Shown: positions 29,618-34,798 of the stretch, in pieces
Layout: each line of letters begins with the position of its first letter
How positions within the stretch are numbered: position 1 is the stretch's first letter
Source: Chloroflexota bacterium
Lineage (GTDB): Bacteria; Chloroflexota; Dehalococcoidia; Lucifugimonadales; Lucifugimonadaceae
DNA: 64,000 nucleotides
Reading direction: 5' to 3'
NCBI GenBank assembly: GCA_002721615.1
Contig: PBKW01000009.1
Location: 59,849-123,848, forward strand
Translations under genes and position numbers: made by a program
Notes under the pieces: model-generated
What the model was told of the DNA's origin: nothing
The model's input: only the letters and a program-made list of their open reading frames with translations
The model's database searches: none

Positions 29618-29770
29618 CTGATTCAAGTCCAAATACAATTAAGTTAAATTTTTAATTTGAAATTTGATTTTAATTATAAAAATGGGCAAATTAAATAGAA
29701 AAACTGCAAATAACATCTTGACATCGTGTGTTTAGAATGAAAAAATTTGGTAGTTAGTATAAATATAACT

Positions 29771-29850
29771 AGATAAAACTATGGTCTGTTTTATCTTGTT
29801 GTGCTAATCTTACATATAAGTTTTTCTTAAAAACTAAATATTAAGACCAT
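29771..29850 (+). promoter_or_regulatory. Candidate structured 5' leader with pseudoknot potential
   Basis: AGATAAAAC (29771-29779) / GTTTTATCT (29788-29796) hairpin; loop ATGGTCT (29781-29787) complementary to AGACCAT (29844-29850). Confidence 0.45.
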
Positions 29851-29917
29851 TGAAAATTAATTAATTACAAAATTAATAAATTGAAAAAGTATAAAAAAAA
29901 TAAGACCGTACCGCTGT

Positions 29918-29967
29918 CCGAATTCGAGGCAGCAAAGGTTCGAATGCCTTCAAGCATTCGAATTCGG
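29918..29967 (+). promoter_or_regulatory. Candidate mutually exclusive RNA helices just upstream of the likely start codon
   Basis: TTCGAATGC (29939-29947)/GCATTCGAA (29954-29962) versus CCGAATTCGA (29918-29927)/TCGAATTCGG (29958-29967). Confidence 0.45.
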
Positions 29968-29988
29968 GATAAAAGGGGGATACACGCA

Positions 29989-32900
29989 GTGAAAACATTA
30001 GTATCTGCGAAGACTCTAACAGCCCTAGCAGCAGGAATGTTGCTTATTGTTGGTTTGTTGGGGATCCAGAATTCAACCGATACGGCTCAGGCTGCTGCAA
30101 CAGGAACAGTCAACCTTACTAATGGTTGGTCGAACCTAAGCACTGCTGCGAGCCCAGCTAAATTAGCTGCCGGAACTACTCCAACATATGTTGGTTCAGG
30201 AAAGAGTTTGTATGTTACATTCACTTCTTCTGGAAGACTTATACAAAGTGGTTCTAACCAGTTAATTGTTTCAGTAGTAGACTCAGACTTAAATGCTTCT
30301 ATTACTAAAAGTACAGTTGTGGTCCTACATGCTGACCACAGTTCATCTTCTACACTTATAGCAGCCACCATTGGTGGAACTGGTACAGGTGACTCAAAGA
30401 TGATTCCTATTATTGACAGCTCCGGTAACGGATCTGTTGGTGGTGAGGATATAACTACTGCATGTAAGTGGATTGGACATGGTTCATACAATAACCTTGG
30501 TGCAGCCGCTACAACTGCTACTACAAAATTAATGAATATAGGTAGTGATGGTGACTTCAACTTGAAACTTGATAACACATCTTACGATGCAGCAGCAGCA
30601 GGTCTATTTAATGATTTGCCAGACTGTAGTACTGCAACTGCTGGATTTATTTCAGTAGATGTTAATAATGCAGGAAATGTTACCAATAACCAAGCTGCGA
30701 AGATCACAGTATCTACTGCCAACAACAAATTAAATGTTGTTAACCCACCTGTGGCTGTGGACAACTCTGAAGGAACTAATGCAGAGTATCCAGTAGTTTT
30801 GATGTCTCTATCATGGAGCACAAGTCAGGTGAACACTACTTCTGTAACTGCATGGAGTGGTGTTGTGACTTCAAGTAATGCTATATCTATAGTTCTTGAA
30901 GAAACTGGTAGAAATACCGGAGTTTTCGAACAGTTATTTACAGTGTTCGATAACCAAAATACAGAAATGCCTCTAGGAATGATACAGGGCGTAGCTGATG
31001 GAACAGGAATTGTTTTAACAGCAACCGGTGATCAGACTACATACCCTGTAGGATCTTTTGGGCATGATATTCCAGCAACTTGTGCTAATGATTGTGCAAC
31101 TCCTGCTGGAAGAAGCGTCACTTCTGCTACAAGTACATTAGCAGTTAAAGATGGCGGAACAGTATATGTTAAATACATAGATGCTGCTACTAAAGATTCA
31201 ACTAACGTATCAACTACAGTTTCGGCTAAAGTTGATGCTACGATTCCTACAGTAACAGTTGATAGCCCAGCTCATGCTTCTGAGAACCAGACTAGAGTAC
31301 CTACTATTAGTCTAACTGCTACGGATGCTGGTGCTGGTCTTGATGTATCACAGGCTATACTGTTACTTGATGAAGAAAATGATGATACTGAAGATAAAGC
31401 ATACTCAGATGATAACGATGGAACCTCAAATGGTGCTGACGTAATTACATCTGACAGTGCTGCTAGTATCAACAGTAACGCTACTGGAGTAACTGGAGTA
31501 AATGCGAGCCAGGCTGAACTTCTTGTTCTTTATGGATTCTCTACTGCAGGAGCTCTTAATGGTGGAAGCCACGACAGCTACACTGTAGCTACTGGTGGTG
31601 TAACAGTTGATAGAGGAACAGCTACAGATGGTGCAAGTTCAATGACTTACACTCATACTCCATCAGCTAGTTTGCCTATAGACGGTAACTCTAACTTGAC
31701 TCTTCCAGTAAACCACTGGGTAGACTTCATTGGAGTTGCTTCTGACTTGGCAGGTAACGTTGGATTCTCTGACTCTGACTCAACTGCTAGCGTTGGTATA
31801 CTAGGTAAATACGCTCCTCACCACATTAAGATTGACCAGAAATTGCCTTCTATAAGTAGTGCAAATACCGGTTGGTGGTGGGACACAAGTCTTGACGTAA
31901 GAGACAAGACTCACAAAAACACAACAACAAAAGCTACGGCTTTGGTTGTAAACTTTGACGGAAACGTTACAGATGTTGATGCAACTGACTTCCTAATCAC
32001 TTATGATGACGGAACAACGCATACTCCATCTTCAGCTGTAGTTTACGACTTTGTACCAGATGCTGGCGATTCAGCAATTAGTGAAGGAACACAAAGAGTA
32101 TTCCTTACTTTAGATTCGTCAATGGCTGCTAATGATACTCCAAAAGTTGCATTAGCTGGTTCAGTGTCTGATAAAGCAGGAAATGCTACGGCAACAGGTT
32201 CATTAGGAAACGCTACTGATACCATTGATCCTACTATCACGGCAGTATTGTCTGGTGGTTCAGGAACTGGTACTGGTGCAGAAGGCGCTTCTGGACTAAC
32301 TAAAAACACTGTTACATTGACAGTAACAACTGATGAAGAGTTAATCTCTAACCCAACTGTTACTGTGCATGACCTTGGAATGGCTAAAGCTGGTGGTGGA
32401 GACGATGCAGCTAACGGTAACGCATACTTGGGTCCATGTGGTGCTCTAAGTACTTGTGGATTCGGTGCATCTAGAGTTGAAATTACAGCTTATGGATCTA
32501 GTGCGGCTTCAACTGACTCTGCTGATTGGGTAGGAGCTTCAACTACAGCACAAGGTGCTAAGAGTTTCACTCTATCAATAGCTAAAGGAACTCCAGGTTA
32601 TGATGGTACTAAGACTGTAATAGTCAATGCTACCGACAAAGCTACTTCTGGTAACACTAAGACTACTGGAACAGCTTCAAGTTCAACTGATCAAATTAAG
32701 TTCGTGTTTGACACAACTGCTGCAACTCTAGTGATTTCGCCAGCGGCGGCATCAACTACTACGCAGAGAAGGCCTTACATTGTTCTTGATTACAGTGATG
32801 ACTTAAGTAAAGTAACAATTAGTAAAGCTACTTTGGACGGAGTAGACATTAGTGGTGACTTATCTACTACTGATAACAAGAAATTCTACTATGTTCCATC

Positions 32901-33600
32901 TGCAGACCTTACTGCTGCTAGCCACACAGTTATTGCTAAAATGACTGACTATGCTGGTAATGCAACATCAGAAGAGTCTAAGAGCTTTACAGTGGCTGCT
33001 AGAAAAGACTTCAAAATCACATTGTTAGCTGGTTGGAACGCAGTTTCTGTACCATCTAATCCTGTAACTAGTGATATAGATACAGTATTCAGCAATGCTG
33101 GTGTTGACCAAGTCTTGGCTTATCAGAACCACGCATGGCATATTGCCACCAAAGATGCATCATCAGGAACATTTGCTAGTACGAGCGAGTCTCCACTAAC
33201 TAGTGTTTCTCAGGGTGTTGGTTATTGGGTACACAACAACAACTTTGAAAGTCAAGCTGTGGCTCTAGTAGGTCCAGTAGAACCTTCAGCTGGTACCCCT
33301 CCAGCGGTGGTCACTATACCTACAGTTGCTGGTTGGAACTTCGTAGGTGTTGTAGATGTGTCTAGAGCTAATACTGAAGGTGCTGATGGTACTGCTATAA
33401 CTACTTCTAACCTATACTTCGGTGATTTGGTTGATTCAAATGCTGGTGGACATGATATTGTCTACAAGTATGACACAACTAACTTGAAGTTCGTTGAAGT
33501 AGCTCAAGCTACTAACGTAACAACTGGACAAGGATTGTGGATCTACGTGAAACCTCAATCTGATGGATCAGTGTTAGCAATCGTACCACCTAGTCCATAA
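29989..33600 (+). CDS. Large secreted S-layer-like surface protein
   Basis: Signal peptide KTLVSAKTLTALAAGMLLIVGLLG...AQAAA; long Thr/Ser/Ala-rich beta-type sequence; C-terminal AGWN modules. GTG 29989 follows an AGGGGG ribosome-binding site; ORF is open from TTG 29881. Confidence 0.8.
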   Translation: MKTLVSAKTLTALAAGMLLIVGLLGIQNSTDTAQAAATGTVNLTNGWSNLSTAASPAKLAAGTTPTYVGSGKSLYVTFTSSGRLIQSGSNQLIVSVVDSDLNASITKSTVVVLHADHSSSSTLIAATIGGTGTGDSKMIPIIDSSGNGSVGGEDITTACKWIGHGSYNNLGAAATTATTKLMNIGSDGDFNLKLDNTSYDAAAAGLFNDLPDCSTATAGFISVDVNNAGNVTNNQAAKITVSTANNKLNVVNPPVAVDNSEGTNAEYPVVLMSLSWSTSQVNTTSVTAWSGVVTSSNAISIVLEETGRNTGVFEQLFTVFDNQNTEMPLGMIQGVADGTGIVLTATGDQTTYPVGSFGHDIPATCANDCATPAGRSVTSATSTLAVKDGGTVYVKYIDAATKDSTNVSTTVSAKVDATIPTVTVDSPAHASENQTRVPTISLTATDAGAGLDVSQAILLLDEENDDTEDKAYSDDNDGTSNGADVITSDSAASINSNATGVTGVNASQAELLVLYGFSTAGALNGGSHDSYTVATGGVTVDRGTATDGASSMTYTHTPSASLPIDGNSNLTLPVNHWVDFIGVASDLAGNVGFSDSDSTASVGILGKYAPHHIKIDQKLPSISSANTGWWWDTSLDVRDKTHKNTTTKATALVVNFDGNVTDVDATDFLITYDDGTTHTPSSAVVYDFVPDAGDSAISEGTQRVFLTLDSSMAANDTPKVALAGSVSDKAGNATATGSLGNATDTIDPTITAVLSGGSGTGTGAEGASGLTKNTVTLTVTTDEELISNPTVTVHDLGMAKAGGGDDAANGNAYLGPCGALSTCGFGASRVEITAYGSSAASTDSADWVGASTTAQGAKSFTLSIAKGTPGYDGTKTVIVNATDKATSGNTKTTGTASSSTDQIKFVFDTTAATLVISPAAASTTTQRRPYIVLDYSDDLSKVTISKATLDGVDISGDLSTTDNKKFYYVPSADLTAASHTVIAKMTDYAGNATSEESKSFTVAARKDFKITLLAGWNAVSVPSNPVTSDIDTVFSNAGVDQVLAYQNHAWHIATKDASSGTFASTSESPLTSVSQGVGYWVHNNNFESQAVALVGPVEPSAGTPPAVVTIPTVAGWNFVGVVDVSRANTEGADGTAITTSNLYFGDLVDSNAGGHDIVYKYDTTNLKFVEVAQATNVTTGQGLWIYVKPQSDGSVLAIVPPSP

Positions 33601-33632
33601 ACAGAATTAGGTAAAAACGAGTAAAAATAATA

Positions 33633-33665
33633 TGGCCTCCTGTAGAAATGCAGGAGGCCATTTTT
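33633..33665 (+). terminator. Rho-independent terminator after S-layer-like gene
   Basis: Perfect 10-bp stem TGGCCTCCTG / CAGGAGGCCA, 8-nt loop, then TTTTT. Confidence 0.95.
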
Positions 33666-33700: not shown

Positions 33701-34798
33701 ATGTTTATGAATTTTAAAACTTTATTAATAGGAGTCGTGACATCTTTTCTGCTTACAGCAGGGATATTTGTTACTTCAGATTTTGTAAAAGCTGATAATC
33801 ATGGTGAATTTAATTTTATACCTAGGATTATTGTATTTCAGGGAAATGTATTTATTAATGGTAAAAGGATCAGTGAGTATGAAACTGATATAACTGATGG
33901 AATTACATTAATTGCTAAATCAGGTGATATTGAAATTACAACTGAAGTAGGAGCATTTACTGCTGGTAGATATCATATCCAACTAGGACCTAATATAAAA
34001 GAAGATACAACATTTGAAATTTGGCTTGAAAATCAAGTTAAAGCTGAAGAATCATTATTTTATGGTGCTGATTCAAATGGCAAATGGAGTTTATCTGTAA
34101 TACAAGATCTACATTTTTCCGAAATGCCTGTTGCAACACCAACGCCAACACCTGTACCACCAACACCAACACCAACACCAGTTATTGTTCCACCTGCTTT
34201 TTTAAGTGGTGAAATAGTATCAGGTAGTTCAGGTGAAAATGCAGGTGCAGGTTTAAAATTATATGCAGTTATTAATGATTACACTTCTGAAACTGTTGAA
34301 ATTGAGGATGGTTTTTACAAGATAGTTGTTGATCCTAAATTTGACTATTATGTAGGAGAAAATGTTCAATTCATATTAGAAGGAGTGAAAGCTTTAACCA
34401 CTCATAAGTTCGTATCAGGTGAATTTAACAAAGAAGTCAATTTAATTTTCCCAAATATACCAGCTACACCTGTACCACCAACACCAACACCTGTACCACC
34501 AACACCAAAGCCTAGTGTTCCTGAACCAACGAGGACACCTGTTCCGCCTGTAGTAGAAAAAATTATTGTAGAAATTACTTCAACTCCTACGCCAACACCT
34601 TTAGCAGAGATAGAACCTAAACAAGAAAAGATTTCTGAACCAACAAGCGAAACGGTTGTAATGGAAGAAGAATCTAGCGGAGGAGCATGTAGTGCGAATG
34701 TTGATCCTAATGCACCAATATCATCAGGTCACATTGCAATGCTGTTGTCTCCATTGTTATTTATCGGTTTTAGAAGAATTTTTGGAAGAAACGGATAA
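33701..34798 (+). CDS. Secreted, C-terminally anchored Pro/Thr-rich protein with two related beta-domains
   Basis: N-terminal signal, PTPTPTPVPPTPTPTP linkers, C-terminal GGACSANVDPNAPISSGHIAMLLSPLLFIGFRRIFGRNG. Confidence 0.75.
   Translation: MFMNFKTLLIGVVTSFLLTAGIFVTSDFVKADNHGEFNFIPRIIVFQGNVFINGKRISEYETDITDGITLIAKSGDIEITTEVGAFTAGRYHIQLGPNIKEDTTFEIWLENQVKAEESLFYGADSNGKWSLSVIQDLHFSEMPVATPTPTPVPPTPTPTPVIVPPAFLSGEIVSGSSGENAGAGLKLYAVINDYTSETVEIEDGFYKIVVDPKFDYYVGENVQFILEGVKALTTHKFVSGEFNKEVNLIFPNIPATPVPPTPTPVPPTPKPSVPEPTRTPVPPVVEKIIVEITSTPTPTPLAEIEPKQEKISEPTSETVVMEEESSGGACSANVDPNAPISSGHIAMLLSPLLFIGFRRIFGRNG

Follow-up and report, generated by a model that had tools for sequence, protein, structure and literature searches.

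Does the segment directly upstream of a large S-layer-like gene encode the beginning of its protein, or is it an untranslated RNA leader whose alternative folds could act on translation? The gene lies in a 64-kb stretch of DNA, analyzed as a whole and called the window below:

29989 to 33600, forward strand: S-layer-like gene with a GTG start, encoding a secreted protein of 1,203 aa; the GTG and the V-K/Q-x-x-S protein start are kept across the family.

The product begins with a typical signal peptide. Its sole domain match was Big_13 (Ig-like), just under threshold, and no relative was found in NCBIfam or PDB, so that S-layer-like is a reasonable rather than a proven name. The host family of the gene is a marine, SAR202-type group of Dehalococcoidia. 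SAR202 bacteria are widespread in the ocean. They have been reported to lack peptidoglycan and to have walls made of S-layer (PMC11994032). Were the gene to encode such a wall protein, controlling how much of it is made would be a central problem for these cells. Directly after the gene, a GC-containing perfect inverted repeat of 10-11 bp (33632-33661) is possibly a terminator. The next gene (33701-34798) encodes a protein that has repeats rich in proline and threonine and a C-terminal hydrophobic segment with RRIFGRNG after it, similar to a sorting signal; it matched no Pfam or NCBIfam family over the cut-off.

Seven genomes of the genus hold the S-layer-like gene, including that of the window. 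Protein identity to the window is 97% in G002 and roughly 55-70%, depending on the part of the protein, in the five others. The initial annotation had left room for a 36-aa N-terminal extension starting at TTG 29881, and had named amino-acid conservation with synonymous third-position drift upstream of the GTG as an observation that would speak against an RNA. We made this comparison in four of the five more distant genus members (G009 was omitted owing to an indel). The 42 nt before the GTG had 7, 8, and 5 differences at codon positions 1, 2, and 3, respectively, and the 90 nt that follow had 16, 6, and 52. The pattern is flat upstream, third-position drift begins at the GTG, and the upstream segment is not coding. 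The 36-codon frame is open in the window and G002 but is interrupted by stops in all five more distant relatives, and in other genera in-frame stops lie as near as 6 codons upstream of the same GTG. G000 and G002 differ by a single change in the 84 nt before the GTG, which would be non-synonymous if the segment were coding. A shorter extension (15 aa) would begin at ATG 29944, and all seven genus genomes have an in-frame ATG after a purine-rich, ribosome-like site. A Brevibacillus cell-wall protein gene reportedly uses tandem translation starts, and the likeness lies in two possible starts, each with a ribosome-like site, at a surface-protein gene; here, however, the upstream segment is without coding-type evolution, and the codon-position pattern ruled out a tandem start at ATG 29944. 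Set against these patterns, the frame left open in two genomes and the recurrent ATG leave an extension of either length extremely improbable, and the conserved open frame with third-position drift that it predicts is already contradicted by the sequences compared. On these comparative grounds, translation starts at GTG 29989 and the segment before it is untranslated leader. The RNA reading of the initial annotation has withstood its own test, and the start position of the protein is settled.

Two arrangements were observed around the start codon itself. In genera g4, g5, g7, and g8 (L065-L080), it lies within AGCU-GUGA-AGCU or a close variant, a small hairpin whose GNRA-type loop holds the GUG, with a predicted unpaired probability near 1 in most. 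In the five other members of the window's genus (L027-L031), a predicted hairpin (GAGUGA/UCAUCUC) sequesters the GTG, whose unpaired probability is about 0.02-0.16; coding constraint may explain the 3' side of this hairpin.

The following parts lie upstream of the GTG in the window:

29718 to 29746, forward strand: likely promoter from a consensus scan, with TTGACA at 29718-29723, 17 nt, and AAAAAT at 29741-29746.
29908 to 29983, forward strand: outer stem of the long-hairpin state in the minimum-energy fold, GUACC 29908-29912 pairing with GG 29978-29979 and UAC 29981-29983, and the adjoining CU with GG 29975-29976.
29913 to 29933, forward strand: hairpin A, GCUGUC 29913-29918 pairing with GGCAGC 29928-29933, inner CG/CG.
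29918 to 29967, forward strand: long helix of 10 bp, CCGAAUUCGA 29918-29927 pairing with UCGAAUUCGG 29958-29967.
29937 to 29964, forward strand: hairpin B, the 9-bp hairpin 29939-29947/29954-29962 with a basal extension of two G-U pairs.
29971 to 29979, forward strand: ribosome-binding site AAAAGGGGG, recognized from the sequence.

Counted from the likely promoter, the predicted leader is ~235 nt long. The consensus scan found four promoters versus 3.7 expected and is weak by itself; the TTGACA, however, recurs at the equivalent position in genomes of the genus and of sister genera. The ribosome-binding site reads AAAGGGGG/AAGGGGG in most relatives and AAGGAGG in others.

Several features described by the initial annotation were recovered at this locus. 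GC content rises from 0.18 in 29753-29904 to 0.52 in 29905-29991. A 9-bp hairpin with a 6-nt loop, TTCGAATGC/GCATTCGAA, is located at 29939-29947/29954-29962 and a 10-bp helix, CCGAATTCGA/TCGAATTCGG, at 29918-29927/29958-29967; their 3' arms have 29958-29962 in common, which makes them exclusive, and both stand directly before the ribosome-binding site and GTG 29989. The arms of the long helix are near-copies of a palindrome, and the pairing is in part automatic, as had been cautioned. When the 87-nt leader 29905-29991 was shuffled with its dinucleotides preserved, 0.25% of the shuffles had a perfect repeat of ≥9 bp with a loop of at most 10 nt, 0.35% had one of ≥10 bp with a loop of at most 40 nt, and about 0.1% had both lengths. 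Nowhere else in the 64 kb did a hairpin of ≥9 bp and a helix of ≥10 bp compete with each other. Folding z-scores were -2.4 for 29905-29995 and -4.65 for 29752-30030; measured against their own shuffles, 3% of control 100-nt windows reach the same level, so that folding energy would not suffice by itself.

Evidence for a conserved structure came from the rest of the family. In two sister genera, a block of 115-135 nt upstream of this GTG is highly conserved in nucleotide sequence. A covariance model built from 11 of their leaders (R1) gave one match per genome in 23 of the 76 family genomes. All 23 matches end at the GTG of the S-layer-like gene, and among 234 genomes of the order no other family had a match. 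Across the 23 aligned leaders, 92.9% of pair cells were standard pairs and double changes occurred at 10 of 30 pairs (26 cells), in an alignment that was fitted to the model, and hence leans toward it, and whose sequences are mostly closely related. The compensating bases are nonetheless present in the sequences themselves. The covariation values were reached by none of 500 shuffles, and sliding the partner by 1-3 columns gave a pairing of at most 56.4%. This sister-genus covariation includes G-U pairs and is of the RNA type. When applied to the window's genus, R1 gave no convincing match beyond the ribosome site, and leader homology between the genera consequently rests on position and design. 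What they have in common is an architecture in which a long hairpin immediately precedes the AAGGGGG ribosome site and the GTG; we regard it as homologous by position and design rather than proven so by sequence. Hairpin A is not claimed for the sister genera, where local hairpins lie over the same arm in some leaders and are differing or unclear in others.

Rfam returned no match in the window or 18 related loci at the gathering score, and nothing in the leader region at E up to 10; covariance-model matches to its cis-regulatory families, such as riboswitches and ribosomal-protein leaders, were thus not obtained. A metabolite riboswitch would be expected to place its aptamer before several linked genes or in many lineages, and we found one copy per genome, before the same gene, in one family. 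The element is untranslated, carries compensatory changes, and is associated with one gene only, as a gene-specific structured leader should be; because this association is exclusive, such a leader fits better than a metabolite riboswitch. We therefore consider it very likely that the segment belongs to a non-coding, structured, gene-specific leader. A literature search of incomplete coverage found no study of S-layer gene leaders in Chloroflexota. The leader is best described as a separate RNA element without a described Rfam family, and in kind it resembles other structured leaders of abundant surface-protein mRNAs. Absent from Rfam, exclusive to one gene, and kept by compensatory change, it offers a concrete and testable control site.

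Do two competing helices really form in the window's genus? All six pairs of hairpin A are present in the seven genus leaders. Its strands read GCUGUC/GGCAGC in the window and in G002; those of the five other members read CGUGUC/GGCACG, so that both bases of two neighboring pairs differ between the sub-clades. Likewise, the eight core pairs of the long helix are kept in 7/7 leaders, in the variants UCCGAAUU/AAUUCGGG and UCCGGAUU/AAUCCGGA, which differ by a double change at one pair; this genus covariation amounts to essentially one divergence and one event. With two bases in common and crossing strands, hairpin A and the long helix exclude each other in their full-length form. Hairpin A is the conserved competitor, which the initial annotation had missed. 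Of the two helices that it had proposed as a competing pair, the 10-bp helix is conserved, whereas the 9-bp hairpin, here part of hairpin B, is confined to the window and its nearest relative (G002) and absent from the five other genus members. Hairpin B can form alongside hairpin A, and the pair constitutes the state that competes with the long hairpin. An equivalent of the outer stem (UAUC/GGUA plus CC/GG) is found in the five other members, with weak covariation support. From the kept and compensated pairs, we judge that both competing helices probably form in this genus. A genus covariance model built without the window (R2) ranked the window leader first in the 64 kb, yet weakly (17.3 bits, E 0.026), the second match being chance-like (16.1 bits). 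Matches of R2 in G007, G031, and G068 were judged to be chance; that in G068 (E 6e-5, the model being roughly calibrated) precedes an apparent NADH-dehydrogenase subunit gene and is without the conserved sequence of the leader.

The same conservation could be read in two other ways. Both arms of the long helix are self-complementary and changed together between the sub-clades, as might palindromic operator sites bound in the DNA by a dimeric transcription regulator. However, the arms lie roughly 165-215 nt downstream of the likely transcription start, no further credible copies were found in the family genomes, hairpin A changed in a compensated way despite being non-palindromic, and the covariation of the sister genera is of the RNA type, which together make operator sites very unlikely. 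At the RNA level, the two helices overlap by only two bases, cross each other, and are both kept in all seven leaders, and a trimmed hairpin A (4 bp) might coexist with an 8-bp long helix in a pseudoknot, a single fold that would bind a protein or ligand. The geometry would be tight, with no linker between the two 5' strands and, in the window, ~5 nt leading from the 5' arm of the long helix to the 3' strand of the trimmed hairpin A. We consider such a pseudoknot unlikely.

For these mutually exclusive helices, the predicted balance in the window depends on how much of the RNA is present. When either hairpin A or the long helix was forced in the window, the ensemble energies stayed within about 2 kcal/mol of each other in all contexts tried at 37°C, as would be expected of a bistable element, although such a near-tie depends on the energy parameters. 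Hairpin A has a probability of 0.96 for RNA that stops short of a complete ribosome site and the long helix one of 0.93 for RNA ending at the GTG; with 40-90 nt of coding sequence, hairpin A prevails again (0.76-0.89). The state energies are nearly equal in the window and G002; in the five genus members further removed, the long helix is the dominant one. The minimum-energy fold of the window, which contains the long hairpin, pairs four of the five Shine-Dalgarno G's. Across the ensembles, access to the ribosome site in full-site contexts of the window was about 0.56-0.87 versus 0.56-0.60 between the states, and the difference had the opposite sign in G003, the wrong direction for a switch. 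The interpretation of the initial annotation thus stood in part: the segment behaves as RNA rather than as coding sequence and its helices are exclusive, but a translation-level switch or autoregulation is no more than a possibility, and in the predicted ensembles access to the ribosome site is only modestly changed between the states.

We favor, with a probability of roughly 55%, a structured leader of one gene family that is proposed to be bistable and whose competing folds may tune translation. The segment would be the 3' part of this structured 5' untranslated RNA. State I, consisting of hairpins A and B, would leave the ribosome site largely free and be favored while the site is still being transcribed. 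In state II, one long hairpin would form and its outer stem would draw in most of the Shine-Dalgarno G's. A protein bound to the leader, perhaps the surface protein, or ribosome traffic could shift the balance, which would tune the translation, perhaps also the lifetime, of an abundant mRNA. A bistable switch is plausible. That the competition between the helices regulates translation is put forward tentatively from the modeled folds, and autoregulation by the surface protein is a guess, consistent with the occurrence of the leader at this gene exclusively.

Several known systems come close to this leader. Bistable translational riboswitches, as a class, have two exclusive folds near the ribosome site; unlike them, the present leader has no Rfam match, one gene only, no known ligand, and weak predicted gating. 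The leader of the Thermus thermophilus S-layer gene slpA is reportedly involved in autogenous control. It is likened here by description, as an S-layer gene leader, and autogenous control is a feature reported for the Thermus case. The slpA (S-layer) mRNA of Lactobacillus acidophilus has a large untranslated stem-loop leader, proposed as possible mRNA protection (PMC6482533). Its host and gene are unrelated to ours; the present structure immediately precedes the ribosome site, is supported by covariation, and in one genus competes with a conserved hairpin.

By analogy with the L. acidophilus proposal, the long hairpin beside the ribosome site could be static, protecting an abundant mRNA or keeping the initiation region open, with the alternative helices being incidental. 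The long hairpin is strongly supported in the sister genera and favored in most genus members, and the access to the ribosome site is hardly altered between the states, all of which would suit this role. Such a role would not require hairpin A, all of whose pairs are nevertheless retained in the genus, two of them through compensated changes; we regard a purely static leader as a lesser possibility than the bistable one. The broadest claim, that a bistable or pseudoknotted element switches the translation of the S-layer-like protein in SAR202-type bacteria and represents an undescribed, gene-specific regulatory RNA family, is also rather doubtful at this stage. If true, cells reported to be without peptidoglycan would match their envelope-protein output to demand via an RNA element.

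Other upstream regions and the 5' part of the leader provided additional observations. Genomes of genus g2 (L084-L091) have several paralogs of the S-layer-like protein each, many of them clustered, with upstream sequences conserved paralog by paralog; the folding z-scores of these leaders were ordinary. In L027, L028, L029, L030, and L031, an extra hairpin of the GUUGCGACU.../AGUCGCAA type lies about 110-190 nt before the GTG, with G-U variants on its 3' side. In the window, the predicted leader fold has one more hairpin, which is kept in G002:

29771 to 29796, forward strand: 9-bp hairpin AGATAAAAC/GTTTTATCT near the predicted 5' end of the leader.

Its loop is TATGGTCT, in which ATGGTCT (29781-29787) is complementary to AGACCAT at 29844-29850. 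This pairing, also present in G002, may form a second pseudoknot, between loop and tail.
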